The notes beneath the pieces were generated by a model. It was given only the letters and a program-made list of their open reading frames with translations. It was not told the origin of the DNA and ran no database searches. From a virus: a DNA stretch of 64,000 bases. Location: IMG/VR virus record IMGVR_UViG_3300007760_000005, positions 1 to 64,000 of that record; one strand, written 5' to 3'. Numbering within the stretch: position 1 is the first letter of the stretch; the number at the start of each line of letters is the position of its first letter. The position numbers and the translations under genes are program-made. Of the stretch, positions 2,753 through 37,200 are shown in pieces.

Positions 2753-2766
2753 AGGTATAGTGAACC

Positions 2767-4530: not shown

Positions 4531-4546
4531 TCGAAGGAGAAGAACG

Positions 4547-5023
4547 ATGGCTACAGAGTATTGGCTTGCGGGAAAAGACACGGGAGTTCCTGAGATCATG
4601 GGGAACTTGAAAGCTCACCACCCTGATTTGATCTTGGTGGAAGATGAGATCGCCGTGATTTTCCGTGAGAAATCGAGCAAACGAGGCGGAACGGTAGTTT
4701 TGGGCAAGGCTAAAAAGGCTCCAGCATTGGTTGGGGTGCTTGGCGACACGGACTATAAGTTCATTTTGGAATTGGCGTTCGATGAGTGGGATGGGTTGGA
4801 CAACAAGCAGCGGTCAGCGTTGTTGGACCACCTTCTTTGTGCTTGTCGGGTTGAAGAGAATCCCAACACCGGGGACTTCCGTTGCTTCATCGCTCCCCCT
4901 GATGTGAGCTTCTTTTGGGACGAGTTGGATCGACACGGCGATTGGCGGCCTCGGCCTTCAGATGCGGCGGACACTGAAATCAAACAGTTTACGGAAATCT
5001 TTTCGCCTTCCGGGGATGCTTGA
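4547..5023 (+). CDS. Phage metallopeptidase-like protein, probably inactive
   Basis: The start is ATG 4547 after CGAAGGAGAAGAAC, a strong ribosome site. The 158-residue protein resembles the small phage metallopeptidase family (PF18894 type): FDEWDGLDNKQRSALLDHLLCACRVEE matches the family helix that normally reads ALLDHELCH. Here the catalytic Glu of HE is Leu and the second ligand position is altered, so the zinc-peptidase site appears lost. It lies between primase and DnaX. Function is unknown; a structural or regulatory use of the fold is possible. Confidence 0.5.
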   Translation: MATEYWLAGKDTGVPEIMGNLKAHHPDLILVEDEIAVIFREKSSKRGGTVVLGKAKKAPALVGVLGDTDYKFILELAFDEWDGLDNKQRSALLDHLLCACRVEENPNTGDFRCFIAPPDVSFFWDELDRHGDWRPRPSDAADTEIKQFTEIFSPSGDA

Positions 5024-5069
5024 GTGACCTTTTTCGAGTCTCTTTAGTAAAAAGAGCAGGGGAGAAGGG

Positions 5070-6437
5070 ATGGCTCTTGATACCAAATATCGCCCAACGA
5101 GGTTCGATGAAGTCATAGGTCAGGACACTACTGTAAGTATCCTCCGTGAATTTATTCGTTCTGCGTCAGGGCTTAGGCAATCGTATTTGTTTGCTGGTCC
5201 TTTCGGGTCGGGCAAGACAACGCTTGGGCGTATTCTTGCTCGGTCTTTACTGTGTGATGCCCCGGTAAATGGGGAGTCTTGTGGGACGTGTCCCTCTTGT
5301 GTCGAGATTTTGGAGAACGGGAGTTCTGCGGATTTTGTGGAGGTAGATGCCGCCACCAATTCTGGTAAGGACAATATTCGGAAGATCGTTGAGCAGCTTC
5401 AGTACTCTTCCTTTTCGGGGAAGCGTCGGATCTATTTGTTTGACGAAGCCCATCAGCTATCGAGGGATGCTTTAGATGCCCTACTCAAGCCGATGGAGGA
5501 TGCTTTACCTGGCACCGAAGATAAGCGGCTGGTGTGTATCTTTGCGACCACCGAACCCGAAAAGATGCGAACTACGGTCGTATCTCGATGCGCCCCTCCC
5601 TTCATTATTCGTCATGCGTCCGTGGCTGCAATTGCGGATCGGTTGGACTATGTTTGTGAACAAGAGGGCTTTACTTACGACTATTCTGCGTTGGAATTGA
5701 TTGCCGAACATTGCGAATGTCATATTCGGGACGCTCTAAAAACGATTGAGGGCGTGACTATGTTGGGGGCGGTCACGGACGAAAAGGTTTATGCCTATTT
5801 AGGGCTGGCCACTTCTTTGTCCATTTTGACTCTGATTGGGGCCATGGGAACTCAAGACCCTAAAACGGCTGTGTCCTTGGCCCAAGAGTTGTTGGCGCAG
5901 GCTTCCCCCTCTGTGCTGTATGAAAAGGTTTCTGACCACGCTCTACGGCTGTATGCCGCAAGTTTAGGGGTCGGCAAACCTCCTTCGTGGTGGCCTTTGG
6001 AATTAGTGACCAACCTAAAAGACCTTGGGCCAGCCTTGGTTCACATAGGTTCTTCCTTCGCATCTAAGCCGGGGCGGGTGCCCGCTTCGGCATTTCTCTG
6101 CGAGGTTGCCAGTTTGTGTGTACCTTTTGTTCCTGCCCAAGTTGCGGTATCTCCTTTGAATTGTGGGAAGATGAAGAATACGGAGACCCAAGTTTTAGAC
6201 GTGGGTAAAGTAGTGAACCCGATGAAGTTTCAATCAGCACCCTCTGTAGAGGGGGGGACATTTTTGGACCCACGGGGAGTGAATCCGAACCATGTTGGGG
6301 ACAGCCGTGTTGAAAACAAAACTCGAACACCCAAAAAACAAACTAACGGTGAGTTGGCGGCGAACGAGTTTGCCGACATTTTTTCTCGCTACCTCAGTGA
6401 GTTAGGGAGAAAAAATGGCAGACAAGAGGGACCGTAA
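5070..6437 (+). CDS. dnaX: DNA polymerase III gamma/tau-like clamp loader ATPase
   Basis: This 455-residue AAA+ ATPase loads the sliding clamp onto primed DNA. Seen are the DnaX opening KYRPTRFDEVIGQD, Walker A GPFGSGKT (43-50), a zinc module CGTCPSC near 72-78, Walker B LFDEAHQLS, sensor 1 FATTEPEKM and the arginine-finger SRC. The C-terminal tail after about 365 is low-complexity and shorter than bacterial tau. Ribosome site AGGGGAGAAGGG precedes ATG 5070. The end overlaps the NusG-like gene by 23 bases, and an A6 run lies at the overlap. It pairs with the clamp encoded at the window start. Confidence 0.92.
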   Translation: MALDTKYRPTRFDEVIGQDTTVSILREFIRSASGLRQSYLFAGPFGSGKTTLGRILARSLLCDAPVNGESCGTCPSCVEILENGSSADFVEVDAATNSGKDNIRKIVEQLQYSSFSGKRRIYLFDEAHQLSRDALDALLKPMEDALPGTEDKRLVCIFATTEPEKMRTTVVSRCAPPFIIRHASVAAIADRLDYVCEQEGFTYDYSALELIAEHCECHIRDALKTIEGVTMLGAVTDEKVYAYLGLATSLSILTLIGAMGTQDPKTAVSLAQELLAQASPSVLYEKVSDHALRLYAASLGVGKPPSWWPLELVTNLKDLGPALVHIGSSFASKPGRVPASAFLCEVASLCVPFVPAQVAVSPLNCGKMKNTETQVLDVGKVVNPMKFQSAPSVEGGTFLDPRGVNPNHVGDSRVENKTRTPKKQTNGELAANEFADIFSRYLSELGRKNGRQEGP

Positions 6438-11199: not shown

Positions 11200-13433
11200 G
11201 TAAGAAAAAAGCGAAGCAGAGCGAGTCTCATCTCCCCGATGGCGGCCATGTCCCAACTTCCGGTTTCAATTACGGCTTAGACGGCTTTGATTTTGATATG
11301 GATTACGGAGACGGCGTTGAAGACGGGGCCGTGTTACCTGAAGCCTACGGCATGGCCGAGCTTCCTGAAGGCATCCTTCCCGAAAGCCCCGATGAAAAAG
11401 ATGCTGAAGCTGGACCCCCTTCCGCCCCCAGCAACTACACAGGGCCAGCCGTCCAAGTGAAGCAGCGCAGCGGCCCCCTCCATAAACATATGGGCGATCC
11501 TTGGGGACTGCTGGCTTCTGGTGCTGTTCTTTCAGAGGAAGAGAACTCGCAGCTTGGGAAGAAATCCTCCCTCGCCAATCTCGATTGGCTTGATCCCTCG
11601 CTCGAACAAGATGAAGACAGGCTTCCTGTCAATCCTGTGGATAAGGCTCAGGCTGCTCTCCAACAAGCGTGGGTAGAGACTCGAACAAACGGGTTGGAAC
11701 TGATTCCTAATCGGAACAAAGAGGTTGAGCGGTATCAAGCTGAAGTTCGTGATCCCGGCCAAACATCAGGGCTTCCAGGCTACGACAATGTAAAAGCCGC
11801 CATGCAAAAAGCTATGCGGCGATCCGCTTGTGGTTATTCGATGGAGGCGTTGCTGAAAGAAGCCGCCGAAGAGCTTGAAACTCCCGACACCACGGCACGG
11901 CTTTTGGCTGGCCTGATTTCAGAGGAGCACGGTTTAGCTGGAAACGTGTTTATTCGAGCGTCAGCCTTTCCTGGGATGCACAACGGAAAATGGGACTCTC
12001 TCATTAAGACGAAGTGTGCCTCCGCCGCCTATATTTTGGCAGAGCCAAACACGAAGATGGCCGCTTTTGAGAACTACCTCGGTAAGCGAGTTGTTCTTGA
12101 TATTCCTTGGAAGGAAGCGTTGAGGGTTTATGCCCCACGACTCAAAGCCTTGGGCATCAAGGTCGCTGGTTCGGACCCTCGCACAGCCCTTAAAACCGCC
12201 TTTACTACGAAGCCTACGAGGAAGCCGAGGCGCAGAGAAGCCTTTACGACACACAAAACGCCCGTAGAGTCGGTCAGTATGGCCGAGGCAAAAGAGAAGT
12301 TCTCGGCTTCTAAGAAGCAAGCGCAAGCTAAGATTACGGGCGATACGCTGGACACGGTGTTGAAGACCCGTGCTCAGAAGCATGTCCTTGAGTTGGTGCG
12401 GAATGGTTCACTGACGAAAAAGGCCGCTAAAGAGATCATCAATAGTGGGGCGAGTCCTAAAGAGATGCTTCGCTTTGCTACCGCAGCGGCCTTTCCGACA
12501 GCGGGTAAAGACTACAAGCCGAGTGGCATCCATACGAAGGATGTAGGTCAGGCTCGTAAGCTCAAGCATGAGTGGGCCAAGAAGGTCACGGCTGACTTGA
12601 AGAAAAGCAAGTTGGATCAGGCCAAAGAGCATGTTCAGGCTTTGGCGGATAAGGCTCAAATCACACAACGACAAGCGGATAGGCTACTCAAGTCCAAGCG
12701 TAATGCGGGCGAGTTAGTACACGCTGCATCTGCGGTGGTGGCTTTGAACAACTCGAAGCGTGGCGAGATTACCGCTACACCTGTTCGAGAGTATTCGGAA
12801 GCCATTTACACAGAGGCGATCCCAGAGAGTCGAACCACCAAAACCAGTAGCGTAGATGTTCGGAAGCTCGTTAAGTGGTCTCGGATTCAGATGTCTGAGG
12901 GCGTGTTGGGCAAGGATTTCGACGACCTTCTTTCCGCTCGCTTTTCAAAGCGTTTGGTAGAGGCGGCTGGTCATGAGCTTATTCAGATTCGTGAGGCCCA
13001 CGAGGGCCTTTCAGGGCAAGTTTATGTAGACACCGAAGCCTACGCCACTCCCGAAGGAACCAAAGGCTGTGACAGGGGCGCAGACAGGCACAGAACGAAC
13101 GGCTTGAAGTTCGCTTTGTGTATGCCTCGATGTGGGACTTGTAAGTTCGCAAACAAACTCCCTGACGGGCTTTCTGTTTGTCAGAAGTACAATAAGATTC
13201 TGGTAGAGGAAGCTCCGGTTGAGAACCCGAAGAAGTATCAAGCAGAGGCTCTTCGGCTTGCCAGAGCCAGTGATGCAGAAATCACGGCTTCTTTGTTTTC
13301 GGGCTACGACCCATCCGAGTTTCAACTGTCGAACGATTCCATGACAGGGTTCGATTTCAACGACACTCCCGAACACGAAGAGTTGGCGGGGGTGTTCTTT
13401 GGTGGGATGAGCCTTGGGGAAGATGATGAGTAG
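11196..13433 (+). CDS. Large virion protein with duplicated domain and cysteine cluster
   Basis: The 745-residue protein has an acidic, disordered N-terminus (1-150), a helical lysine-rich middle (330-520), and two related segments. These are EEHGLAGNVFIRASAFPGMH (about 243-262) and REAHEGLSGQVYVDTEAYAT (about 598-617). The second is followed by a Cys cluster, KGCDRGAD ... LCMPRCGTCKF ... VCQKYN, that may bind zinc. No enzymatic motif is recognised. It lies before the Dps-like and terminase genes and overlaps both neighbours, suggesting a head-associated structural or cargo protein. Confidence 0.6.
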   Translation: MSKKKAKQSESHLPDGGHVPTSGFNYGLDGFDFDMDYGDGVEDGAVLPEAYGMAELPEGILPESPDEKDAEAGPPSAPSNYTGPAVQVKQRSGPLHKHMGDPWGLLASGAVLSEEENSQLGKKSSLANLDWLDPSLEQDEDRLPVNPVDKAQAALQQAWVETRTNGLELIPNRNKEVERYQAEVRDPGQTSGLPGYDNVKAAMQKAMRRSACGYSMEALLKEAAEELETPDTTARLLAGLISEEHGLAGNVFIRASAFPGMHNGKWDSLIKTKCASAAYILAEPNTKMAAFENYLGKRVVLDIPWKEALRVYAPRLKALGIKVAGSDPRTALKTAFTTKPTRKPRRREAFTTHKTPVESVSMAEAKEKFSASKKQAQAKITGDTLDTVLKTRAQKHVLELVRNGSLTKKAAKEIINSGASPKEMLRFATAAAFPTAGKDYKPSGIHTKDVGQARKLKHEWAKKVTADLKKSKLDQAKEHVQALADKAQITQRQADRLLKSKRNAGELVHAASAVVALNNSKRGEITATPVREYSEAIYTEAIPESRTTKTSSVDVRKLVKWSRIQMSEGVLGKDFDDLLSARFSKRLVEAAGHELIQIREAHEGLSGQVYVDTEAYATPEGTKGCDRGADRHRTNGLKFALCMPRCGTCKFANKLPDGLSVCQKYNKILVEEAPVENPKKYQAEALRLARASDAEITASLFSGYDPSEFQLSNDSMTGFDFNDTPEHEELAGVFFGGMSLGEDDE

Positions 13434-14013
13434 ACTTGCTGCCAGAGTTGCGTCACGACACCTAAAGAAAGCCTATTTGGTAGGTGTCCCTACGCACGTT
13501 CATGCAGCACAGACTATTCTTACGGTAACTCTCGCAACGCTTCGAGGGTTGCGGTGGATGCACTGGTCAGCGCATTGGTCAGCAAAAGGCCAATCCAGCT
13601 ATGGGGATCACCAGTTGTTTGAGCGCATGTATAACCAGATGACGGGAGAGATTGACCAGCTTGCCGAAAAGTGTGTTGGGCTATTTGGCCCCGATTCGGT
13701 CAGCCCTTTCTCCCAAATGGATAAAGCGCAAGCACATATCTCAAGGTTCAAAGAAGTGGATTGCCCGCTTTTGAGAGCTTTGGCGGGGGAAGAAGACCTA
13801 CAAGTCACGATTCGCACTGCCTATGACCTACTAAAAGGCATGGATAGCCTGTCTCTTGGTATGGATGATTATCTAATGACATTAGCAAATCAACATGAGG
13901 TCTTTATTTACCTGTTACAACAACGAATGACAGACTCCGAAGGCCGCCCAGGAATTGAAAAACCGCCCTACGATTTTAGTCTGGTGGGTGAACCCATAGG
14001 AGACATCGAATGA
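13423..14013 (+). CDS. Dps/ferritin-like protein with tag helix
   Basis: The 196-residue protein begins LAARVASRHLKKA, a copy of the recurring tag, then enters a ferritin-like helical bundle: LRGLRWMHWSAHWSAKGQSS and DHQLFERMYNQMTGEIDQLAEK. Counting from ATG 13423 gives H51, H63, E67, D78 and E82. These are the same spacing and numbering as the E. coli Dps ferroxidase ligands (H51, H63, D67, D78, E82), with Glu for Asp at 67. Dps proteins oxidise and store iron and protect DNA. Later helices (DLQVTIRTAYDLLKGMDSLSLGMDDYL) complete the bundle. GGGGAAG precedes the start. A role inside the virion is inferred from context only. Confidence 0.65.
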   Translation: MMSRLAARVASRHLKKAYLVGVPTHVHAAQTILTVTLATLRGLRWMHWSAHWSAKGQSSYGDHQLFERMYNQMTGEIDQLAEKCVGLFGPDSVSPFSQMDKAQAHISRFKEVDCPLLRALAGEEDLQVTIRTAYDLLKGMDSLSLGMDDYLMTLANQHEVFIYLLQQRMTDSEGRPGIEKPPYDFSLVGEPIGDIE

Positions 14014-17289: not shown

Positions 17290-17577
17290 ATGGGAAAACT
17301 TCGAGCCAGACTTGCAAAGAATGATGTGGATCGAGAGGCACTTGGTCATATGGCCAGTGCCGAGAATTCCCTTCGTCAAGCCTTGGGAGTATATTCCCAA
17401 GCGTCAAAGACGGCTTCGGGCCAACAAAAGCGTAGGTTGAAAGACATTCATCGCCACCTTAAAAATGCGTTAAATGCCCTGTCCTCTGCTCGGCCAATGG
17501 CCCCTAATTATGATTTGGACGATCCCGACTTGCAAGACAGGGTTGTTGATCGGGCCACTAAGGGACGTGAAGCATGA
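17290..17577 (+). CDS. Hypothetical small helical protein
   Basis: ATG 17290 is preferred over TTG 17281 because the GAGGG site is better spaced. The 95-residue product is helical and basic (LRARLAKNDVDREALGHMASAENSLRQAL, RRLKDIHRHLKNALNALSSA). It overlaps the portal start by four bases. Function unknown. Confidence 0.5.
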   Translation: MGKLRARLAKNDVDREALGHMASAENSLRQALGVYSQASKTASGQQKRRLKDIHRHLKNALNALSSARPMAPNYDLDDPDLQDRVVDRATKGREA

Positions 17578-19265
17578 GTAGAAAGATCGAGGAACAAGAA
17601 GGCAAAGAGGTAGCCAAGGTTCCAAATCGTGCGAAAGTCACGACAGGGAAGCCGAGAAAAATCGCAACGGGCGGGATCAAGATGGCTTCTTTCCCACAAG
17701 TGGGTGGAAGCATGACTGGGGCGGGGGGCAACTTTTATAGCCCTGAGCTTTCGACAGACTTCTTGGAGCTTCCTCAAAGTCTTGATGAACAGCGTAACTA
17801 CTATCGCTTCTTTTATCGGGCCGACCCTTTTGTAGGTCAAGCGATTGACCTACACACAGAGCTTCCCCTGAGCAAACTTCGGTTGAATATCCCGAAAGCG
17901 GAAGATCACCAATTAGCGGAGAAAGCGTTGGCCTTTTGCCAGAAATGGTCAAAGAGCACGGGGCTGCTGCATCGGCTGATTGAGATTGTCCATGACTATC
18001 ATTTGATTGGAGAGGTGTTTATCTTTGTTGAAGACACCTCCCCGGACATGCCCCAAGATATTCGACAAGAAGAAGTCCGTGTTTTGAATGACGAGACTCA
18101 AGAGGTGGATGTCCAATGGCACGAGCGACCAGACGCAGATGATCGAGCCGTTACTTGGCTAAAGGAGAACTACAATGGTTGGACTGCCATTCGTATATTG
18201 CCTCCCGAACAAGTCCACATGGAAGCGTTTCCTTTTACGGATGAAAGGATTGTTGAGCTTATCCCTGACTCGAAGACCAAGGATCTGATCAACCAAGCGG
18301 ATATGGGCGACTCCAACGCCAAGCGTGTTGTGGATTCGATGCCCTCCGATGTGGTCAATTCAATTCGAGGCGGCCAGAACATTTCCTTGAACACAGACCC
18401 CGAAGCGGGGTCGTTCGTTTACTACATGTCCCGCAAAAAGAGCCAATACGAGGCCCGTGGACACTCGATCCTCGAACGCTGTATCCGAACATTGGTGTTT
18501 AGGGACAAGCTCCGACAGGCTCAGACTTCTATCGCCAGCCGCCACATGACCCCCATTCGAGTGATTTATGCCGAAGGTATGGATATTCAGGATGTTGAGG
18601 AGTTACGGGATCAGGTGGACCTATCTCTACAAGACCCCGACTACTCAATCATCGCCAACTTCGAGATTCGTTGGGAAGAAATGGGGGCGGATCAACGCCT
18701 GTTGGATTTGACCACTGAGTATGACCTGACTGACCGCCAGCTATATGCGGGCCTTGGGGTAACGGAGTCTTTGCTTTCAGGTGAGTCTTCGTATTCGGGG
18801 GATAGGATCAACCTTGAGGTGATCAACACTCGCTATATGTTGCTTCGGGAACTCCTCCAAGATTTCATTGAAGAGTACGTTTTCAAGCCGATGTGTGCTC
18901 GCATGGGGTTCGTTGAGACGGATGAGGACGGGTTGGAGAATGTGATTTACCCTAAACTCTCGTTCACTCGATTGGCCTTGCGGGACAACTCAGATACTTT
19001 CGATGCCTTGTTCAACCTTTATCAAAAGGGAAGTCTCGATATCGACATTATCTTGGAGTTGCTAAATATCGACCCAGAGACAACCAAGCTCAAACTACAA
19101 CGGGATCTATTCACTTTGAACGACTCCTCTTTCAATGAGGTTATGCGGTCAGTGTACAGTGAGGTTGGTCGGGCTTTGGCCGAAAGCTCTGATGTGGCTC
19201 AGAAGGTCGCTGAGAGCATGGGCTTGGAGTACGAGAAGAAGGACGATGGCGGTAGCCGCTTCTAA
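17574..19265 (+). CDS. Portal protein
   Basis: The 563-residue protein has the portal-type core: LDEQRNYYRFFYRADPFVGQAIDLHTELPL near 65-95, long helices in QLYAGLGVTESLLSGESSYSGDRINLEVINTRYM, and the clip-to-crown helical region at the C-terminus. The length is usual for portals of large myovirus- and siphovirus-type phages. The portal forms the dodecameric vertex for DNA entry and tail attachment. Its place after terminase agrees. No fusion or truncation is visible. Confidence 0.85.
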   Translation: MSRKIEEQEGKEVAKVPNRAKVTTGKPRKIATGGIKMASFPQVGGSMTGAGGNFYSPELSTDFLELPQSLDEQRNYYRFFYRADPFVGQAIDLHTELPLSKLRLNIPKAEDHQLAEKALAFCQKWSKSTGLLHRLIEIVHDYHLIGEVFIFVEDTSPDMPQDIRQEEVRVLNDETQEVDVQWHERPDADDRAVTWLKENYNGWTAIRILPPEQVHMEAFPFTDERIVELIPDSKTKDLINQADMGDSNAKRVVDSMPSDVVNSIRGGQNISLNTDPEAGSFVYYMSRKKSQYEARGHSILERCIRTLVFRDKLRQAQTSIASRHMTPIRVIYAEGMDIQDVEELRDQVDLSLQDPDYSIIANFEIRWEEMGADQRLLDLTTEYDLTDRQLYAGLGVTESLLSGESSYSGDRINLEVINTRYMLLRELLQDFIEEYVFKPMCARMGFVETDEDGLENVIYPKLSFTRLALRDNSDTFDALFNLYQKGSLDIDIILELLNIDPETTKLKLQRDLFTLNDSSFNEVMRSVYSEVGRALAESSDVAQKVAESMGLEYEKKDDGGSRF

Positions 19266-19323
19266 TACAGGTGTCCTCCATAGTCTGCCTATCATCTTTC
19301 AACGGTAGGTGTATTACCGACCG

Positions 19324-22300
19324 ATGAAGGATGCTTTTGTGACCCTTACCACACAACATAAAGACACAGTTCAAAGGGTTGTCTCAGCCTTCCACAAGAA
19401 ATCTGTGTCCAGCCAACACTCGACCGCTCTAATGCGGTGGATGGCAGAGGCTGTGGGCCGTCTTGGTCCTGATGTGGGAAAGCATGTGTATGTGGTGGGC
19501 GGGGCTGTCCGAAACTTCGTAATCGACCAACCCATTAAAGATGTGGATATGGTCATAGACTCAAAACACTTGGGTAAAGACTCGGCTTGGCTCGCCAAGC
19601 GGTTAGAGCGCATGATTCCAGCCTCTACGGAGTTGATCACGGACAACTACGGAGTTGCCAAGATTGTAGTGAAAAGTTCGTGGGTTGTGGACGGTGTGGA
19701 CCTCAGTGAGTTTAGTGCCGAGGGCGATGCTGCCATTGAGATCGTTAACGCTCGGTCAGAGACTTATTCGGACGATTCCGGCGGGGGGTACAAACCCTCT
19801 GTTGAATGGTCTGGGATCAAAGAAGATATCATGCGGAGGGACTTCACCTTCAACACGTTGATGTGGCGGCTATCGGATTTAGCGAAGGGTCCAGATAAAG
19901 CCGAGATCATTGATATGACGGGTTGCGGCTTGGAGGATTTGAAGGCAGGTGAAGCACGTTGCCCCCTTGACCCTGACACGACTTTTCAAGATGACCCGAC
20001 TCGAATGCTTCGAGCAATCAAGTTCTTGGTCAAATATGGCCTGAAGATACCACCAGATACCGTAGCTTCAATCCGCCGTAAGCGGATGGCCCTCCTGAAA
20101 GTAAGCCCCTCTCGTGTGGCCCAGGAGTTATTCAAGCTATTGGAAGAGAATACGTGGAAACAAACATTGGCCCAACTTGACCGTTTGGGGTTGATTGAGC
20201 CGCTGAAGGTGATGCTTCAAAAGGACAAGATGTTTGCCGCCACCATGAAAGGGAGGGCTGCGAAATTGCCAGTTCAGTTTTTCTTTACGTTGACCGACCT
20301 CGGCCTGCCCGTTCGCCACGATCTCGGATTTCTTGATGCGGCGGGCCGTAAGCGGGTTGCTGATATTGCGTTTGAGATGACCCGTGAGGAGCAAGACCAT
20401 CTTGTTTCGGCTTTGAAGAATCCCGGTAATGCCATCAAAGATAAGAGCTTCATGCCAATGTTGGCGAAAGAGAAGGGCATTGAGAAAAAGGATTTGAAGT
20501 CTTTTTTCCCAAGAGTACAGGAGCTTTCTCGCTTGGTTCTTTTAGAGAACCCGGAGCTTTTGAAATCCCCAAATCAGTTGAAAAGTGAGATTCGCCGTTC
20601 AGTAGACAAGTTGCGGTTAGCCAGTTTGCTTCCGATTATGTCGCCGTGGTTCAACCTTCGAGAAGTGGTCAAACAATGCGTTTTATTGGAGGATCACCTC
20701 TTTCATCCCCGCAAACGCTGTCCAGATTGTATAGCGAAGCATTTTTTGACTATCGAAGGCTTTTTAGAAGAGGCCGTTACGCTCGATAAAATCAACGAGG
20801 TTTGGGAAACAAACCAAACAGATTTATCGCAGATGGCGGATCGTATTCGATTGCTTCAGCGGGCATGGTTGGAGGAGTCCGACCCCCAATGGATAGCGCA
20901 AGCCCTTCGCTCAATTCGGAAGGAACTCGACCCCACTGCTCTTTTAGGTGTTTATCGACAGGCTAATATAGAGCGTGTTGTAGATCGCTCGTATCCGTGT
21001 CCTCATGAAGAAACACTGAAAATGGGTGGTTTGAAACGATGGTTGATGAACCTCTTGTCGAGAGCGACAACGGTGAAGGCTGTCCACGATTGGGGCGTTG
21101 CTGACGTTACGAAAGGCTCTCATGACATTGGAGGAATGATCCCCCAAGGATTTGTTTGGCAAATCGGTAAGGAGTGGTGGGCTTCCCCCGGAGATTCAAA
21201 CACCCCTAAACGCTTCACCAACGAATCCGCTGCGGTCAACGCCGTTCGCTTTCATAGGGTAGCGACAAAAACTCTCGCTGAGAAAGAAGACGAAGAAGCG
21301 GGCCGCCTTGTGCGACCCTCTCCGAAGAAGAAGCCCCCACGCAAAGACTTACGAAAAGAGCGTGTGGATGCGGAAGATTCGGACGTTGAGGATCTTGGGG
21401 CTGAAGGCGATGACGATTTGAGCATGAACTATAAGCGAATTGCTCAACGGTGGCTGACTGCTGACGGGATTGAAGAGTTGGGGGATGACGAAGGCTTCAA
21501 AGCCACTAAAGGGGATAAGACCGAACACTTTTCAACACGAGAAGAAGCCGAAGCATGGTTGGCCGAAGACCCCGGAGAAGATGACGATGAAGGCGGGGGT
21601 GGAGAAGAAGAAATCGGGGACGGGCCAGAGGTAGCTAAGGTCGATTCGGAAGAGTCGATCCCAGAAGGGCTTAAAGGGCTTTTGGATTTAGAGGCGTTTG
21701 ATGACCCCGAAACAGACTTTCCAAGGCCAGATGTGTCTGTGTCCGGTCCCGTTGATGGGAAATACACAATCACGGTTGATCATGTGGACGGAACAAAAGA
21801 TGAGGTGTCTTTAGACCCGTCTACCGAAGAGGGTTTAGACCTCTTACAAACATTTCCTGAACAGGTCATTGAAACCCAAAGGGTCAAAAACAAACAACAC
21901 GTTGAGGAAGAATTAGCGTCTCGTGAAGAGTTGGCTTCTCGATTAGAGGCTTTGCTACCAGACTTGGTGGAGGCGTTGGAGGAAAACGCAATCTTGTCGG
22001 AAGCGTTTGACTTTGGAGCTTTCGAGGCCGCTTTTGAAGCTGAAACCGAAGGGTTGAAGCAAAACCCTATGAAGCTCATCGATGCACGGGCAGCTTTGAG
22101 TGGGGAGTATGCGGCAGAGAGGTTTTTTGAGGATGAGGGTTCCCCCGCAGCTTTTATAGGGGAGGCCCTTGCCCGTGCGGAATATGCCAAGAAAACCTAC
22201 TTTAACCCAGCTAAAGACCTTTCAGACCCTAAAGATAAGTCAGAACTCACAAAAGATGCTCGCTTCGCTCAGGTTTCCTCAACCATAGAAGATTCTCGGA

Positions 22301-23085
22301 AGTATTCTGGGGACGACCGCCAAGTGCTTGTAATGGCGTTAGAAGCAGAGGCCGATACTTTACCTGAGAGGTCAAAGCGAGTCGCTGAGATTGAAGCCAG
22401 AATTGAGGGTCACCATTTAGCGGCGATCCTTAAAGGACATGAATCCCCCGGTGGGGTGTCTCCGAGTAAAGAAACCAAACGGTTTGTTCGGAAGATGGCA
22501 GAAACAGAGGACGGCCACGCCGCCTTATGTACCCCATTACAAGAGTGGCATACCCAAGAGAGTCGTGAGGTCTTTTTTGCAGTCATGGAAGAAGTTCCAG
22601 ACGAGCAGTTTCAAGATTTCTTCGATTCGGCCACCCCGTCCGGGATCATGGCGGGCCGAGTTCCTTTGGGACATGACCCAGAAGAAAGAGGGACGTTACG
22701 AGATTGGGCGATGGCAATGGCGTTGGATAGCATCACAGTGTACTCCCCCCTGCTCGCTGAAATAGGCTTACAAGAGGAAGATGGGGGCGATTTCGCATAC
22801 TTAGAGGCGTGTAAAGGTCTGATTAAAGAGGCTCACGACAATTTGCTCAACGAAGAAGAGCCACCGGAGGACATTGGGGGGACACTTCGGAAAAGTATTT
22901 CCGCCACCGTCCTCTCGATTTTCGCTGAAAAAAAGCAAGACCAAGAGAAATTGTCAGATGACCTATTTCTTTTGGCGGATAAAGTTCGGGAACACGCCGA
23001 CACAGGCAACGCCGAAGCATTGTCACAAAAGACGCTTCCGCCCCCGCCCCCTCCATTCGGGGGAAGGCGGAAAGAAAATAAATGA
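19324..23085 (+). CDS. Giant protein with CCA/poly(A)-type nucleotidyltransferase domain
   Basis: The 1253-residue protein begins with a class II tRNA nucleotidyltransferase/poly(A) polymerase head. Seen are GGAVRNF (59-65), metal-binding DVDMVID (73-79), RRDFTFNTLMW (171-181) and DDPTRMLRAIKFLVKYGL (223-240), all in family order. A CPDC..KH segment (about 457) follows, then a Trp-rich patch. A Met-Asn-Tyr with tag helix KRIAQRWLTADG lies near 700, then an acidic linker and a long helical C-terminal half. Bacterial CCA enzymes are about 400 residues, so two thirds is phage-specific. It sits between portal and protease, where enzymes of RNA metabolism are unexpected. ATG 19324 is chosen; GTG 19309 is possible. 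Confidence 0.75.
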   Translation: MKDAFVTLTTQHKDTVQRVVSAFHKKSVSSQHSTALMRWMAEAVGRLGPDVGKHVYVVGGAVRNFVIDQPIKDVDMVIDSKHLGKDSAWLAKRLERMIPASTELITDNYGVAKIVVKSSWVVDGVDLSEFSAEGDAAIEIVNARSETYSDDSGGGYKPSVEWSGIKEDIMRRDFTFNTLMWRLSDLAKGPDKAEIIDMTGCGLEDLKAGEARCPLDPDTTFQDDPTRMLRAIKFLVKYGLKIPPDTVASIRRKRMALLKVSPSRVAQELFKLLEENTWKQTLAQLDRLGLIEPLKVMLQKDKMFAATMKGRAAKLPVQFFFTLTDLGLPVRHDLGFLDAAGRKRVADIAFEMTREEQDHLVSALKNPGNAIKDKSFMPMLAKEKGIEKKDLKSFFPRVQELSRLVLLENPELLKSPNQLKSEIRRSVDKLRLASLLPIMSPWFNLREVVKQCVLLEDHLFHPRKRCPDCIAKHFLTIEGFLEEAVTLDKINEVWETNQTDLSQMADRIRLLQRAWLEESDPQWIAQALRSIRKELDPTALLGVYRQANIERVVDRSYPCPHEETLKMGGLKRWLMNLLSRATTVKAVHDWGVADVTKGSHDIGGMIPQGFVWQIGKEWWASPGDSNTPKRFTNESAAVNAVRFHRVATKTLAEKEDEEAGRLVRPSPKKKPPRKDLRKERVDAEDSDVEDLGAEGDDDLSMNYKRIAQRWLTADGIEELGDDEGFKATKGDKTEHFSTREEAEAWLAEDPGEDDDEGGGGEEEIGDGPEVAKVDSEESIPEGLKGLLDLEAFDDPETDFPRPDVSVSGPVDGKYTITVDHVDGTKDEVSLDPSTEEGLDLLQTFPEQVIETQRVKNKQHVEEELASREELASRLEALLPDLVEALEENAILSEAFDFGAFEAAFEAETEGLKQNPMKLIDARAALSGEYAAERFFEDEGSPAAFIGEALARAEYAKKTYFNPAKDLSDPKDKSELTKDARFAQVSSTIEDSRKYSGDDRQVLVMALEAEADTLPERSKRVAEIEARIEGHHLAAILKGHESPGGVSPSKETKRFVRKMAETEDGHAALCTPLQEWHTQESREVFFAVMEEVPDEQFQDFFDSATPSGIMAGRVPLGHDPEERGTLRDWAMAMALDSITVYSPLLAEIGLQEEDGGDFAYLEACKGLIKEAHDNLLNEEEPPEDIGGTLRKSISATVLSIFAEKKQDQEKLSDDLFLLADKVREHADTGNAEALSQKTLPPPPPPFGGRRKENK

Positions 23086-23220: not shown

Positions 23221-23802
23221 ATGGCCCTAACAAAAGAAGCCGCACAAGCTATTACCGCCGATCTGGACCGTCTGGCCCAACTCTTTGAGGCAGACCACAA
23301 AGCACTTGGTATTCCAACCAATGTTGCGAAGGACTTCGCATACCGATGCGATCTGCTTTCCGACTTCGTTGAGAAGCGTTCCAATGAGGAGTCTGACTCC
23401 ATTCAGAAGGAATTCAATCAGGAAGTGGATACTCAGCACGAGTCGGATGAGCCTTATATGGCCACTAAGACCCATCAGGATGAGCTTTATGAGCTTGGAA
23501 ATATGGTCGAGAGTGGTGGTCTTGGCAAAGCAGCCCTAAAGGAGATCGCCGCAAAAGTCGCTGAACTCTTGAAGGCATCCGATGAGGATGAGGACGAGAA
23601 GGACGCTGATGACGAGGAAGAAGAAGATGCCGACAAGAAGGCAACTTTGGTCAACCTTGCTAATAGCCTCCTCCGATTGGCTGGTGACGACGAAGACGCT
23701 GACGAAGGCGACGAAGACGCTGACGAAGGCGACGATGGGGATGATGAGGACGCTGATGAAGGTGGCAAGGAAGCCTCTTTCGCTCACGGTTATGCCCTTT
23801 AG
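23221..23802 (+). CDS. Acidic head-assembly-type protein with Asp/Glu repeats
   Basis: The 193-residue protein has a helical N-terminal half (ITADLDRLAQLFEADHKALGIPTNVAKDFAYRCDLLSDFVEK) and a C-terminal half dominated by Asp, Glu, Ala and Gly in DEDADEGD units, ending GGKEASFAHGYAL. Acidic repeats of this kind are typical of scaffold or core proteins. TTAGGAGGATACATC precedes ATG 23221. The 135 bases upstream hold a short GCAGG/CCTGC hairpin but no gene. Its repeats resemble those in the protein at 25733. Confidence 0.55.
   Translation: MALTKEAAQAITADLDRLAQLFEADHKALGIPTNVAKDFAYRCDLLSDFVEKRSNEESDSIQKEFNQEVDTQHESDEPYMATKTHQDELYELGNMVESGGLGKAALKEIAAKVAELLKASDEDEDEKDADDEEEEDADKKATLVNLANSLLRLAGDDEDADEGDEDADEGDDGDDEDADEGGKEASFAHGYAL
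23689..23730 (+). repeat. Two perfect 21-bp tandem copies
   Basis: Two adjacent identical 21-base units encode the DEDADEG heptads of the acidic protein. The related run at 26681-26766 encodes similar units. Confidence 0.85.
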
Positions 23803-23810
23803 GAGTTCCC

Positions 23811-24314
23811 GTGAAGCAGGCCAGCGGACAAACCCATTATCAAGAGCGGGCTACTGAGTTTGCCGTAGGGGATTATGTAGTCCCTTTCGGACATGGCTTG
23901 GATGTCGTAGGGACCATTGTGGCTCTCTACCCCGCTATTGGTATGGCTGATGTGCAGACTGCGTGGGGTGCCACACGGTATCCTGTTGAGGATCTGCAAC
24001 GGACTAACCCTGATATCTGGCTCGCACCTCCGAAGACCAACTCTGTTCCTGGCGGAGCAGGTACTGTTCCCGCCAAAAAAGCCGCAGCCTCTCCAGAGAG
24101 GGTTGCTTTGTATTGGAAAACCAAAGATCGCCAGTATCACGCTACGAAAAGTGAGTGTGATTCGGGCGTTTACGGGTGTCCTCGATGCAAAGAGGGTGGC
24201 TTGAAGAAAGCAATCTATAAGCGTAGGGAAGGTGCCAGTGAGCACCTATACGCATGTCCTAATTGCATGTTCTTGATCAAGAACTTGGACATTCACATGC
24301 ACGGGGGCGAATAG
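23811..24314 (+). CDS. Zinc-ribbon virion-block protein
   Basis: GTG 23811 follows TTTAGGAG. The 167-residue protein has an SH3-like N-terminal part (FAVGDYVVPFGHGLDVVGTIVALYP ... TRYPVEDLQRTNPDIW). A C-terminal zinc ribbon follows, with CPRC and CPNC flanking GGLKKAIYKRREGASEHLYA. It sits just before the protease in the head block. It may bind nucleic acid or act in assembly; function is unknown. Confidence 0.55.
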   Translation: MKQASGQTHYQERATEFAVGDYVVPFGHGLDVVGTIVALYPAIGMADVQTAWGATRYPVEDLQRTNPDIWLAPPKTNSVPGGAGTVPAKKAAASPERVALYWKTKDRQYHATKSECDSGVYGCPRCKEGGLKKAIYKRREGASEHLYACPNCMFLIKNLDIHMHGGE

Positions 24315-24315
24315 T

Positions 24316-25704
24316 ATGGCTTTTCTAAAGTATGCGAAGGCGAAAGTAGTATCTCCACAACTCTCTCCGAAGAGTTGGCAGAAGATTCGCACAGCGGCAC
24401 AGGACACAGAACTTGCTACGAAGGTTTCCGCACGAGCGGCGGAGCTTCTTGGGTCGAGCTTTGATCCCAAAGATCACCTTTTGACCCATGCGACGATTGT
24501 TTGCTCGGTGGATGTTGAAGATGTCCCCGGAGTAAAGGTCGGGTCTTCTCAAGAAGATGGTCAACAAGTGGTCCGTAACTATACGGATTATAGGATCGTT
24601 CCTGATTGCGATAAGTTCATCAATAATAATCTGGATGCTTGGAGCCGTGAGGTTCTAATGAAGTCCTACAAGACTTTCATTGGGGCGCATAACTTCGTTG
24701 AGCATGTTCAGATTGAAAACCTGTCGAAAGGCAGGATCATTGATGCGGTTGCTCGTGATATTGGGGACAGCGTTTACATCGACATTCTGATTGCCACCAA
24801 TCGCAAACACACTGATTTAGTAAAGGCGATTGAGAATGGCAGAATGGCAGCTATGTCGATGGGCTGTTCGGTGGACTTTACCGTATGTACAAAATGCGGA
24901 AATGTTGCCGCCGATGAAACCGAAATGTGTGGTCATATCAAATACGAAAAGGGGAATACCTTTTTTGATGATCAAGGCCGCCAACATCGGATTGCTGAAC
25001 TCTGTGGACATCAAACCCTTGATCCCACAGGGGGAGTGACCTTCATCGAAGCCAGTTGGGTAGCAACTCCCGCATTTGCGGGTGCGGTTATGCGAAATAT
25101 TGTCTCCCCGTTGGAGATGAGCGATTCTGCGAAGAAGCAAGCTCAAGAAGTATTATCTTCCCTCCCGAAAGAATGGGCCGATGGGGGCTTGGCGAAAGCC
25201 GCAGCCTCCTCACTCGTTTTCGCTGGTTGGGATGATCCTGATGTTCCAGATGAGGTGGGTGGGGAGGAAGATGCTTCTCCACTCCAAGAACTGGAAGATA
25301 AGATTGTTGGAAAGATTCTTTCCAAAGCTCGTCAGCGTATTGAAAAGGACTTGGAGGGTGCCCCCGAAGGGGACGGCGACTCTTCAATGGCCCCGAACGA
25401 TACGCTTCAGCGGGAAGCCCGTGGCGCAGATAAACAGACGTATCTTATTGGACTACAAGCGATTTTAGACACTTCCACGAAACCTGCTGATCTTATCAAC
25501 CGGGTAGCCACCTATAACAACCATCACAAAATCATGTTTCCTGTGGAAATCTATCGAGCCGCCTTAAAACTCGGTTCAACAAAGAAGTACGACAATTTAA
25601 CTGGGTATCTAAGTGCATGTACGAGAGCACTTGGACGTAAGCCCTCTTTGACAGAAGCCAAGGCGTTAGTCCGTCTGGGCAAGCTCATCTCGCACACGGA
25701 TTAA
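24316..25704 (+). CDS. Head-maturation (prohead) protease
   Basis: The 462-residue protein has the T4 gp21-like serine protease fold signature: FIGAHNFVEHVQIENLSKGRIIDAVARDIGDSVYIDILI with the candidate catalytic His in VEH (about 131), then AMSMGCSVDF with the candidate nucleophile Ser (about 181 or 184). A Cys cluster (CTKCGNVA ... MCGHIK ... ELCGH) follows, as in related large-phage proteases. The C-terminal third is acidic then helical, possibly a scaffold-like tail. It would cleave head proteins during maturation. Position before the acidic protein and capsid supports this. The catalytic triad is inferred, not proven. Confidence 0.65.
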   Translation: MAFLKYAKAKVVSPQLSPKSWQKIRTAAQDTELATKVSARAAELLGSSFDPKDHLLTHATIVCSVDVEDVPGVKVGSSQEDGQQVVRNYTDYRIVPDCDKFINNNLDAWSREVLMKSYKTFIGAHNFVEHVQIENLSKGRIIDAVARDIGDSVYIDILIATNRKHTDLVKAIENGRMAAMSMGCSVDFTVCTKCGNVAADETEMCGHIKYEKGNTFFDDQGRQHRIAELCGHQTLDPTGGVTFIEASWVATPAFAGAVMRNIVSPLEMSDSAKKQAQEVLSSLPKEWADGGLAKAAASSLVFAGWDDPDVPDEVGGEEDASPLQELEDKIVGKILSKARQRIEKDLEGAPEGDGDSSMAPNDTLQREARGADKQTYLIGLQAILDTSTKPADLINRVATYNNHHKIMFPVEIYRAALKLGSTKKYDNLTGYLSACTRALGRKPSLTEAKALVRLGKLISHTD

Positions 25705-27775: not shown

Positions 27776-28645
27776 ATGTCGAACGTATCAAATGCCGTAA
27801 AGCAGCGTATCATCAGTGAGTACATCAAGACCCCTCAGGGTCGTGCCAAGCTCGCAGCTTCGATGACACAGCCGCTCCGTACCCGTCGAGATTACACCGC
27901 CGTTGGCCGTAAGACCTTTTTGGTCGAGCAGTTGCCGGATGGTGCTTTGCCGATCTACGATAAAGACCCCGATGTGACTGCGTATGTGGTTGGTGAGGAA
28001 GGCGAGAATATCGTCGCTGTCACCAAGCCTCGTCGTGTGATCTTCCCTCTTTTCGAGATCGCCAGTAATCCCGAAATTCCACTAACCCAGATCAAGGAAC
28101 GTCGATTCGACCTCATTGAACGTGCTCAGGACTTGGCCCGTGCCCAGATCCAGGCCGCTGAAGATGAGCGAGTATTCGCAGTTCTTGACACCATTGCTTC
28201 CAATGGTTTTGACTCCATTCAGGTTGAGCAGAATCAGTCCGTCGTTGCCCCGATTAGTGGCTCCGTGCTGGCTGACGCTTTCGCCCTGATTGAGCGTCAC
28301 GACCTTCGTGTTGCTCGTGTGTTCATGAACGCTCGTGACTATGCTGACCTTCGTAAGTTTGGTCGGGACATTCTGGACATCGAGAGCCAAGCGGCTCTCC
28401 TCAAGACTGGTCTCATGGGAACCCTTTGGGGTGCTCAGGTGATCGTGTCTCGTTTGGTTCCTAACGGCGTGACTTATGTCTGCTGTGAGCCAGAGATGTT
28501 CGGTCGTATCCCGGTTCGTACCGAGCTTACCGTGCTCAGTGCCGATGATCCCAAGGCTCGTACTATCGGATTCTCCGTGTTCGAGAACCTTGGACTTGGT
28601 GCCTTCAACCCCCGTGGGTTGACACGACTCAGCATTACTCGCTAA
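27776..28645 (+). CDS. Major capsid protein (HK97-type fold)
   Basis: AAGGAGGTTATC precedes ATG 27776, giving 289 residues. The pattern is that of an HK97-fold capsid: N-arm basic segment (AVKQRIISEYIKTPQGRAKL), an E-loop-like FLVEQLPDGALPIYDKDPDVTAYVV, spine helix ERAQDLARAQIQAAEDERVFAVLD, A-domain strands, and C-terminal YVCCEPEMFGRIPVRTELTVL. A strong terminator follows, and codon use looks uniform with highly expressed genes. It is placed after protease and decoration genes as expected. Confidence 0.85.
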   Translation: MSNVSNAVKQRIISEYIKTPQGRAKLAASMTQPLRTRRDYTAVGRKTFLVEQLPDGALPIYDKDPDVTAYVVGEEGENIVAVTKPRRVIFPLFEIASNPEIPLTQIKERRFDLIERAQDLARAQIQAAEDERVFAVLDTIASNGFDSIQVEQNQSVVAPISGSVLADAFALIERHDLRVARVFMNARDYADLRKFGRDILDIESQAALLKTGLMGTLWGAQVIVSRLVPNGVTYVCCEPEMFGRIPVRTELTVLSADDPKARTIGFSVFENLGLGAFNPRGLTRLSITR

Positions 28646-29783: not shown

Positions 29784-30095
29784 ATGGCGAAACGAGTAAT
29801 AACCCAAGTACGGGAGTCAATTTTTGAGGTGTTCGAGGGGTATATCCCAGGCAACACCAAAGCCGAGAAGATGGCCGTTATCCGTAAGGCTACCTTTACA
29901 GGGAAAGGCGACCCTGGAGGTTGGTCCCCGACCGCAGCGGTCGTGATTCACACCGAGTCAGGCATCCCTAACCCTGCCTATGAGTGTGGTGGTGGTTGGC
30001 CGATCACTGAAGGCTGGACCAAAGTTACGGAGTCCTTGAACGGGTATCACTGCGAAACCTACAATGGGGCTGTGATGGCCGTGTACGAGTCCTAA
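29784..30095 (+). CDS. Hypothetical protein under the tandem operators
   Basis: AAAGAGGTG precedes ATG 29784. The 103-residue protein contains basic and Gly/Trp-rich segments (SIFEVFEGYIPGNTKAEKMAVIRKATFTGKGDPGGWSPTAAVVIHTESG ... GGGWPITEGWTKVTESLNGYHC). I do not recognise it. Its control region suggests it is expressed only when the adjacent HTH protein is absent. It converges on and overlaps the patatin gene by four bases. Confidence 0.5.
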   Translation: MAKRVITQVRESIFEVFEGYIPGNTKAEKMAVIRKATFTGKGDPGGWSPTAAVVIHTESGIPNPAYECGGGWPITEGWTKVTESLNGYHCETYNGAVMAVYES

Positions 30096-31150
30096 TCGCA
30101 ATCCGACATGCCGTGGTGCATCTTTTCAAGGATGCCCACCATTTCGGTACGAGCACTTTCTCGCCCCGCCTCAAACATATCGTGAAGGGCCTCTAATGGG
30201 GCATCGAATCGCAGCAACCATTTCCAATGTCGCTCTGGAGTGCGGGACCACATAGTAAAGCATGGGTTCCCGGCCATATCTTCACGATCTTCATTTGCGT
30301 TCGCTCTTAAGGCCCCCCAACAAGAGTTGAAGAATTTGGTAAGGGCTGGCCGTTCCATAAAGTTTGGGTCGTATGGAGGCTGTGGGTCATCTAAGACAAC
30401 CGCCAAAGTTAAAGGCATTTCGTGGCGGATCTCAACATCATCGATTTCGGATTGGACCCACATAGGAGGGTCGTCTCGGTGGCCGTCTTCGGGGGGATAT
30501 AACTCCCCAACATCTAAACACATATCGTAAGGGCAATAAGATGATGTCCCCCCATCTCCGAAACAAGAAACCCCATGTGTTCGGTATTCGGGGGGGATAT
30601 GGAGCGTGTCGAATTCGTTGTCCAAGATAAGTTGGTTTGGGATTACCATGGGGCATAGTGCTCCCGGCAAAGCCATGGAAGCAAAGATAGGCATGGCCCA
30701 ATGATCTCTGGTGTCCCGATGCAGTGCCATTTTGTGTACTGGAAACACCACTTCTCTTTCCGAAGATAAGGACCAAGCATAGGCGTAGCATGGGATTTTC
30801 GGTTGGTGCGGCTCGATGGCGACCTTGCCGATTTCTTCGTACAGCTTGTTCGCTTGAAGGAATCCCCCGTATTTGAAGAAGTTGTAGAAGGCGTTGATCC
30901 AACCAATAAAGCTTCCGCCAATCTTCGCCCCTTTGAGGCGATGGCCGTGGTCGTTGATCCAAGTGATAGGATCAACGTCTGCTGCGAGCATGGCGGCGAC
31001 TAAAGCACCCCCGGAGTCTCCCCCGACCGCTATGAGGTTGTAGCCATTTTCTTGAAGGATTTTGCGAGTCTCATATGCTGTCCCCAATAGCAAAGGCCAC
31101 CGTCCAGCGGACGGGCCTAATACCATGACGACATTTTTGAGATCGCCCAT
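30092..31150 (-). CDS. Patatin-like phospholipase
   Basis: The 352-residue protein has the patatin Ser-Asp dyad pattern: an oxyanion-like GPSAG (12-16), nucleophile GDSGG (44-48, Ser46), ASMALPGALCP (157-167, patatin ASxAxPxxF) and DGG (199-201, Asp199). Patatins hydrolyse acyl esters of membrane lipids. There is no signal peptide. GGAGACTTGA precedes the ATG. It is on the minus strand, unlike its virion neighbours, so it may be a cargo gene expressed at another time. Roles in lysis or membrane remodelling are inference; active-site assignment is strong. Confidence 0.75.
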   Translation of the reverse strand: MGDLKNVVMVLGPSAGRWPLLLGTAYETRKILQENGYNLIAVGGDSGGALVAAMLAADVDPITWINDHGHRLKGAKIGGSFIGWINAFYNFFKYGGFLQANKLYEEIGKVAIEPHQPKIPCYAYAWSLSSEREVVFPVHKMALHRDTRDHWAMPIFASMALPGALCPMVIPNQLILDNEFDTLHIPPEYRTHGVSCFGDGGTSSYCPYDMCLDVGELYPPEDGHRDDPPMWVQSEIDDVEIRHEMPLTLAVVLDDPQPPYDPNFMERPALTKFFNSCWGALRANANEDREDMAGNPCFTMWSRTPERHWKWLLRFDAPLEALHDMFEAGRESARTEMVGILEKMHHGMSDCD

Positions 31151-34200: not shown

Positions 34201-37200
34201 TTTGACTCTTCAGGCACGGTTACCTGTGGGGTGCCGACAGGGGTTTCCTTTGATATTGAGGAAATCGGAGACACTTGGTTTCAACATGGCCGCCATGGGA
34301 TCAAGCTCGCCCCGGCGGGTGTGTCTTACATGAGCACCTGCCTACTGACACTTGAAACGCCTGACGGAGATAAAAGTTTCAGTGGGGCATACAGCCATTC
34401 GGTTACGGATAGTGGGAAACCCGCTTTCATTTTTGGTCCTTTCCATTGGGATGTGGACACAAATGGTGGTGAGGATTTGGACACTTCCTATGCTTATGGG
34501 AACAACCCCCCGAACGCCCAAACTGGAACACCTACTCATGTTTTGGCGGGGGTTCATAAGGCGACCTTTGCTTGGTCAAGCGGAACTACAGAGATCATGG
34601 ATGTTGAGATCAAGGATCACGGCCTCCATGTAGTGTTCAACGAAATCGGAGACGATGGCCGAGTTGAAGTCACTGTTACGGAAGATGACCCGAACGGTAA
34701 GATGGACACGATTTGGTTGTACAACGATATCCTACTCCCTGTGGGCGGTAGCGCAGCAATGGATGTGGGGTCTACCTACACCACCAGTGAGCTTGAGAAC
34801 GGCACCTACAACTATGTGGTTGAGGGTTACAGCGACACTGAGGAGAGTGGGGCAACTTCACCTTTTGCAGATTACGCCATGTATCGTTGGGAAGGCACTT
34901 TTGAAGTTCAGAACAAGAAGCCTACGGTTTACAGTTGGGATGCTGAGTACCGCACAGACAGTGGGGATACTTATTATGTGCCTTCCTACAACCCAAATGA
35001 AGAACTGCCCGTAAAGCAAGGTTCAACAAGCAGTGCTGGAACCATTTACATCAAGTTCAGCCCTAAAGCGGATCAGGAGACTTATACAAACCCTCCTTGG
35101 GTTCATTACAAGCTCGAACCTCTCAATGGCTCTCTCGTAATCGATGAGGGGTATGTGGACCTTACTGCGGAAGGGGAGGTTGAAAAGTCGTGGTCTCACG
35201 AGAATTTCCCTCTCCTAACTAAAGGGACATACAGGCTTTGGCTGACAATGCGGGAAGCGGATAAAACCACGCTAATCGGCGGTCTTAATTACAAAGACTA
35301 CACGATTGATGTGATGGCTCCACGGTATTCAAATACAGGGGCCGTCTCCGGGGCCATTACCCAAAACTACGGGAGTGAGGAAAATGGCGACCAATACACC
35401 ACCACAAGTATGTGGAGGTTCCTCGCTTCAGGAGACCATTACGCCCCTCAACATTCTTTTTATGATCCCGCCTTCAACGCTTTGACTCTTCATTATGACG
35501 AGGCGATGGATACAGACACCTTGAAGGTTAAGTCACTTCCCGACCCTCGAACCTCAACTGGTTGGGACGATTGGAAGAAACACGTGGATTGGGGGATTTT
35601 CAGTAGTGATGATAACTACCAATACCGCAAAATTAGGGAGACTGCCGCCGCAGATATTTATGGGAACCGTCAAAACAGTTGGACTTCTCAAAAGGTATTC
35701 ATGGAGAAGATCGACAAGCCTATTTTGGTCGATGTTAGGAACCTCACCCCGGAGGATGTAAATATCGATGCGGCCCCTCAAGATTATGTGTACAAGGGTC
35801 GATTTGGTGGGATCATCCATATGGAGGGGGATGTTTCAACATGGACTGTTGATGGAGATCAACAATGGTCGGATGTTGTTAACAGATCGACACAACATTT
35901 CTCATATGAAGCCACAGGCAACTCTTATGCCCTTCCTGGAGTAGATCACTGGAAGCAGTATGCGACAGACACTTTTTACGAAGCGAGTTGTTCTACGAAG
36001 ACAGTGGTTCTTGAGCTTCATTATTCAGAGGCGTTGGAGCATTCGCCAGAGGTTATCCTTCATGGTGAGCACTTTGCTCCGATCCTCCCATGGCCCATGC
36101 TTGGTGGAGACTTCAGCGGCCCCAAAACCCCCACCTATTTCTTTGGGGTGCCAAAACCACTGGTCCCTAAAGTACAGATGAACGCAGGGAAAGGTGGCAG
36201 CTATTTTGATCCCTACCCCGTGAGCACCCCTTGGAGTACGGAGCTAAAAGACATTTCGCAGACCTATGTTATCCATCGAGCAAGTCTTGATGGGGTTACG
36301 GTTGCTTCGGATGAAATGTGCTTTATCAAGCTCTGTGAGAAGGGGTTGGAAACGGCGACTGCTGACTTCAACTACTATGCGGGATCGATGGGAACGTATG
36401 ATCCCCCATCCGAAGTTGGTGGCATCTCACGAACAGACCGAGGGGATACCCGTCTTTGGACATCCGAAGGAACGGTGGGCAAGGTCGTTCGAGTAGCATT
36501 GAACTTTGAGAGTATGTTGTTCGGGAAGGTTTCGGTGATGCCAGTTCCGGGACACCCCGATCAATACGGGATTCCTATCTGCTTGGAGATTCGGCAAAAG
36601 GAAGGCCCTTACGACACAACCCTTGGCCCTGATCGCATAACCTTCTGGTTGCTATGGAACGGGATTAGTGATGAAGGGGTTGATCTCACAGATAGTTGGG
36701 ATGTCGATTGGTGGGCGCACAACGATGTTGAGTCCACTGACCGAAGTGTTTATTGGCCCAACAACGATACTGCGTTGGGTCGGACATTCGAGTTCGCCAA
36801 TGCGGATCTTAACCTCACACAACACTCGAATCGCAAATCGTTTGTGTGGGATCGTCAAGCCATTGTGGGCTACACCCCGCATGTTTATGTGGCCTCGATT
36901 GATGTGACTACGGCTGATGGGAGCGACACCGCTTCATTAGAAGAGGGTTCAACGCTTCAGCTAAAGGTCACGGCTACTTATTCAGATGGGAGCACTGGCG
37001 ATATTACAAGTTCCACTGGCCTCCAGTGGAACAGTTCATCTGAGACAAATGCTTTGGTTGACGATAATGGTTTGGTGACAGGCGTTCTTGCTTCGACCTT
37101 TGCGACCGAGATTTCTGCTAAAGTGATGGACGCATCAGACAGTATTGCCATTACCGTGACTGACCCTGTTGTGACGCTTAGTTCTATCCATATTGTGGAT

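Follow-up and report, generated by a model that had tools for sequence, protein, structure and literature searches.

Why would a phage encode a tRNA nucleotidyltransferase (NTase) among its head genes, and as part of a 1253-residue protein? The gene, P0001 (19324..23085; window coordinates written with two dots are on the plus strand), lies in a 64,000-nucleotide stretch of viral DNA, here called the window, which is part of a 91,174-base IMG/VR record. Its frame is uninterrupted, encoding 1253 aa from the ATG at 19324 or 1258 aa from a GTG at 19309, and relatives have a syntenic slot; we describe P0001 as a probable head-block polyvalent protein. Its modules run in the order NTase, CxxC module, linker, tag helix and acidic C-terminus.

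The class II tRNA NTase module (residues ~16-432, 19369..20619; family HMM 2e-211) was identified by the profile searches that the preliminary description had called for. Pfam assigns residues 55-209 to PolyA_pol (E 2.7e-14) and 239-294 to PolyA_pol_RNAbd (E 8.7e-10), and PHROGs labels the protein a tRNA nucleotidyltransferase (1.6e-30). As a single sequence searched against the PDB, P0001 scored about equally with CCA enzymes and poly(A) polymerase; a 17-row profile of the module placed the Thermotoga maritima CCA-adding enzyme first (3.6e-25), followed by the enzymes of A. aeolicus (~1e-22) and B. stearothermophilus (8.5e-21), with E. coli poly(A) polymerase behind the CCA enzymes (~2e-17). 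By this comparison a poly(A) polymerase identity is disfavoured, and the module appears nearer to CCA-adding enzymes.

All four head-domain motifs of this class (GG..DxD, RRDFTxN, motif C and [E/D]DxxR) are present, as had been claimed, and the alignment shows them kept across about a dozen relatives. Motif A, GGAVRNF...KDVDMVID, spans 19498..19560 (GGAVRNF..KDVD being residues 59-75, with the metal-binding DxD at D73/D75), motif B, RRDFTFN, 19834..19854 (residues 171-177), motif C, GCGLEDL, 19921..19941 (residues 200-206), and motif D, DDPTRMLRAIKF, 19990..20025 (residues 223-234, including DDPTR); the last serves as an amino-acid template for CTP and ATP (PMC7014341). The module resembles the T. 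maritima CCA enzyme (3h37) and the A. aeolicus A-adding enzyme (1vfg) in its head and neck domains and motifs A-D, and differs from them in its divergent tail, ~820 extra residues and phage head-block context. Structure prediction gave a mixed result on the two outcomes earlier named as counter-evidence. A fold other than an NTase did not appear, since all 41 Foldseek matches of the AF2 model with E<0.001 were class II CCA-adding or poly(A) polymerase enzymes; as to a collapsed active site, residues 173-203, an active-site segment, had pLDDT <50, and overall superposition was poor (TM ~0.25). The identification therefore rests on sequence.

The low confidence of this segment, together with the structural context, could be taken to mean that the NTase fold is a catalytically dead remnant serving as a building block of the head. 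We consider this highly improbable and reject it on the strength of motif conservation in about a dozen homologues and of low dN/dS: in two relatives (L001 versus L003) that carry tandem NTase copies, the ratio is ~0.07 for copy a and ~0.01 for copy b, so purifying selection on the NTase is strong where measurable. The presence of inteins at catalytic motif B in two relatives (G020 and G012) also speaks against a dead enzyme.

Several features of these NTases merit separate mention. In G020 the slot ORF (L118:12838-16944, minus strand) has an intein in the NTase at motif B, with Intein_splicing and LAGLIDADG Pfam matches, and its FTFNC(V/M)AGDTLIPT junction is also found in G012 (L104/L119) and in L011, where it is suggestive. 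In G015, G006, G017 and G020 a single long ORF matches portal, terminase or protease in two separate halves, suggesting further putative inteins in their head genes. A separate ORF (3483-4310) breaks into the L005 NTase gene (2718-5272) between residues ~274 and 279, and an Rfam search for a group I intron in this gene gave no match above threshold. The tandem copies noted above lie in one ORF (L001:6181-9027, L003:7929-10775); the L001-L003 NTases are far from the head block, yet still tagged. The second copy is missing some of the flexible-loop region that lies between motifs A and B. Loss of that loop is what marks out CC-adding enzymes in bacteria (PMC7014341), and the tandem might accordingly join a CC-adding enzyme to a full one, which we regard as a lead. 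Among the NTase matches in phage databases that were examined, in part (a 735-kb phage, gut contigs, Lak and Tunturi_5), those of LR756501, MT835510, MT837203 and Tunturi_5 were rejected as same-slot orthologues, being untagged and in other settings.

Downstream of the NTase, P0001 continues with a CxxC helical module (KRCPDCIAKHFLTIE; 20620..20967; HMM 1e-55), which the alignment shows recurring in the slot of most relatives, and a conserved basic/acidic linker module (KKKPPRKDLRKERVDAE...LGAEGDDDLSMNYKR; 21247..21474; HMM 1e-37, also aligned). The tag helix NYKRIAQRWLTAD (residues ~702-714) occupies 21427..21465. The C-terminal part (21661..23082, residues ~780-1253), which is acidic and largely helical, is without known fold and is 44% identical in L014. 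The proposed structure prediction of the C-terminal half was run on a five-sequence alignment: the AF2 model reached pLDDT 60 and had no PDB match, and for this reason we assign this half no function. P0001 itself is one recognised enzyme plus conserved non-enzymatic modules, and contains none of the known polyvalent-associated domains. Many polyvalent proteins carry a built-in metallopeptidase; none was recognised in P0001. Our own HMMs found 2H, HAD, ligase and topoisomerase domains neither in P0001 nor elsewhere in the 91-kb record, which may be a partial contig, so that only the NTase step of the repair pathway discussed below is present there.

The placement between portal and protease given in the preliminary description is right, with one refinement: the portal gene (17574..19265; phrog_16240, 4.7e-31) directly adjoins P0001, and two small genes precede the protease. 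These encode conserved head-block proteins of 193 aa (23221..23802) and 167 aa (23811..24314), and are followed by the head maturation protease (24316..25704; phrog_18299, 1.1e-12) and the major capsid protein (MCP; 27779..28645; phrog_2522, 1.9e-48). The MCP has 530 confirmed viral relatives in IMG/VR, on contigs of up to 619 kb, of which we kept 80, 85-98% identical; the phage is a member of a widespread clade of huge, water-borne phages. The core clade is without a cultured member, the nearest cultured phages seen being Bacillus phage G (MCP 38%, portal 27% identical) and Tunturiibacter phage Tunturi_5 (48% and 39%), and a near uncultured relative is LR745208 (485 kb; 85% and 65%).

Across 23 mapped stretches, some of them cut by contig ends, the slot follows the portal gene and is itself followed, in this order, by the 193-aa and 167-aa genes, the protease, genes for 403 and 205 aa, and the MCP. 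The slot holds either one giant domain-shuffled ORF or several split ORFs, with lengths by genome of 750, 1550, 1688, 1798, 2047, 2094, 2326, 2834 or 3125 aa. Mapping with Pfam and HMMs identified modules that include NTase, 2H phosphoesterase, Swiss-Army-Knife HAD phosphatase (HAD_SAK), RNA ligase, topoisomerase IB (TopoIB), InPase and GNAT, in varying arrangements: 2H-NTase-tag-tag-TopoIB-linker-tag in L004 and G023, NTase-tag-2H-tag-tag-TopoIB-linker-tag in G015, CxxC-2H-tag-NTase-HAD_SAK-linker in L022, NTase-PAP2-TopoIB-linker-tag in G022, CxxC followed by HAD-TopoIB-linker in LR745208, and, in G003, NTase followed by tag-InPase-AstE-tag-TopoIB-tag-RNA ligase-tag-linker-tag. Of 36 family records, covered in full or partially, 14 gave an NTase match, which was weak in one case. 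Among about 15 non-redundant NTase-bearing slots, several of them truncated (the window, L004, L009, L011, L014, L022, L085, G003, G006, G012, G015, G016, G020, G022 and G023), 2H is fused or adjacent to the NTase in eight (L004, L022, G006, G012, G015, G016, G020 and G023). The companion enzymes have intact catalytic motifs (HxT twice in 2H, DxD(G/N)T in HAD, KLDG in the G003 ligase), and the slot also contains the polyvalent-protein markers LPD1 (G006) and InPase (G003). Multiple unrelated enzymatic domains in one polypeptide are thus a property of the slot family, and what had been described as a single odd gene belongs to a modular polyprotein family, the modules of which together make up an RNA 3'-end repair set. 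The neighbouring genes are drawn into the same fusions, the 193-aa protein being joined to the polyvalent protein in L021, L035, L061 and G018, and the 167-aa protein to the slot protein in G001, G031, L070 and L082, which supports a probable shared location of cargo and head-block proteins.

The internal tag helix reported in the preliminary description proved to be real, and one instance of a strongly enriched motif. Between modules its consensus is R[VI]AxR[YW]; a set of 679 non-redundant ORFs contains 42 copies of the pattern [RK][VI]A.[RK][YWFH], compared with 1.4 after shuffling, and none of 45 tag copies in domain-annotated slot ORFs falls inside a domain, domains being 30% of residues. 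No copy was found in ~20,000 aa of phage G. Tags are interdomain, C-terminal or N-terminal. In the 375-kb relative G001 two proteins encoded elsewhere in the genome, one of the ART-PolyVal type and the other a stand-alone HAD_SAK phosphatase, bear the tag at their N-termini, and in the window it is N-terminal (RLAARVASRHLKKA) on a DNA-binding/Dps-like protein upstream of the terminase (13414..14013; phrog_3636, 2.1e-9). As with the T4-type capsid targeting sequence, a short helix is common to otherwise unrelated cargo; the T4 sequence is N-terminal only and is cut by the head protease, and because the tag is also interdomain and C-terminal we did not file it as such a sequence. Inspection by eye revealed no evident common or known protease cleavage motif beside the tags.

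Of the readings considered, the earlier suggestion that an RNA-modifying enzyme is packaged or injected has the best support, given slot synteny, shuffled cargo, head-block fusions and a tag common to ART-PolyVal and HAD_SAK proteins; its packaging and catalysis parts are extrapolated from these observations. At a probability of roughly 60%, we propose that P0001 is an injected polyvalent protein specialised for RNA 3'-end repair, packaged via its tag and carrying an active NTase of the CCA type. Such multidomain cargo would be produced together with the head and taken up by the prohead through the R[VI]AxR[YW] helices, following the logic of the T4 capsid targeting sequence; the neighbouring head protease might cut it between domains, and it would be ejected along with the DNA into the host. 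There the N-terminal domain of P0001, predicted to be an active class II enzyme of the CCA-adding type, would rebuild lost 3' nucleotides (CCA). Where the companion modules are present, 2H would open a 2',3'-cyclic phosphate, HAD would remove the phosphate, and the RNA ligase, which shares the slot in one relative, could seal a cut tRNA, so that 3'-end healing would counter host attack on tRNA before phage genes are expressed. Against this proposal count the absence of the companion modules from P0001 and its record, the distance of the L001-L003 NTases from the head block, the failure to recognise a protease site at the tags or a metallopeptidase in P0001, and the stand-alone repair genes of phage G. 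A wider claim, which we hold tentatively and place a little short of an even chance, is that huge phages carry a whole set of RNA-repair enzymes (CCA-adding enzyme, cyclic-phosphate phosphoesterase, HAD phosphatase and RNA ligase) in the capsid, in the form of an interchangeable polyprotein punctuated by tags, and inject it so that host tRNAs are mended ahead of all phage gene expression, with the tag a general cargo-loading signal at any chain position.

Phage tRNA metabolism offers another setting for such an enzyme. The NTase could be active but confined to the infected cell, where it would mature the tRNAs of the phage or repair those of the host, in which case head-block position and fusion would reflect late co-expression, with nothing injected. 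This would suit G001, whose nine tRNA genes (L134, 160001-180000) all lack an encoded CCA end and whose two NTase copies lie at a distance from the head block; it would also suit jumbo phages generally, in which stand-alone CCA enzymes are common (PMC7824862), and phage G, whose RNA ligase and tRNA nucleotidyltransferase are stand-alone genes outside the head block (L154:2284-3288, 36200-37093). We take it as a serious rival but judge it unlikely for P0001, as neither the window nor its 91-kb record contains a tRNA gene, and the slot is given over to shuffled cargo domains, which are joined to head-block proteins and bear tags that ART-PolyVal carries too.

The substrate, too, could be other than a tRNA CCA end, with the 2H and NTase modules acting on nucleotide immune signals or modifying other RNA or protein (anti-CBASS or CRISPR signalling, host RNA tailing, blocking of host tRNAs). 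Degradation of 2'-5' oligoadenylate or of cyclic signals has been suggested as a role of polyvalent 2H domains (PMC5512222), the G017 2H domain has a weak Acb1 match, and there are NTase toxins that extend tRNA ends (PMC10435456). The NTase, however, has kept every motif of a class II CCA enzyme, the [D/E]DxxR template and the flexible-loop region among them, and its co-occurrence with HAD_SAK and RNA ligase is a better fit to RNA end healing. On these grounds we hold this reading rather improbable, though likelier than a dead enzyme.

The RNA repair known from phages is the work of early genes that respond to anticodon nucleases. Were such enzymes to arrive inside the particle, the phage could answer tRNA-based abortive defences ahead of any viral expression. 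A literature search confined to open-access papers gave no report of repair packaged in the virion. The slot family resembles the polyvalent proteins of phages defined by Iyer et al. 2017 (PMC5512222) in its large multidomain cargo, head-gene neighbourhood, domains of the InPase, 2H, LPD1, GNAT and ART-PolyVal type, and predicted injection, but differs in its class II CCA-type NTase, HAD_SAK, RNA ligase, TopoIB and interdomain tag helix. In that study Pol-beta NTases occur only in polyvalent proteins of conjugative elements (a minimal NTox45-like type), 2H domains were in no case found together with RNA ligases, and the text says nothing of topoisomerase, CCA or a targeting sequence; with neither phage NTases nor 2H-RNA ligase links described there, we consider the slot family a new form of polyvalent protein, adding RNA repair and topoisomerase IB to the repertoire. 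The T4 internal proteins, diverse defence proteins with only the capsid targeting sequence in common (PMC3012670), and Alt are similar in their variable host-countering cargo, short common helix and nearby head protease gene, although the tag here has a different sequence, is interdomain and C-terminal as well as N-terminal, and is putative in function. A survey of jumbo phages described CCA-adding NTase, Rnl, 2H and HAD Swiss-Army-Knife enzymes as separate genes (PMC7824862); the enzyme families and the proposed logic against tRNA damage are the same, whereas here the enzymes are fused and shuffled in a head-block polyprotein. The tag provides a directly testable rule for head cargo among huge-phage proteins, and is perhaps a means of loading enzymes into large capsids.

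Elsewhere in the window, we noted a weak patatin-like phospholipase match (30092-31150, minus strand; 0.0024, below the curated cut-off), a DNA methylase (1074-2276; N6_N4_Mtase, 1.4e-43) and a Volactin family protein, an actin homologue by family name (62203-63285; E 1.6e-72).
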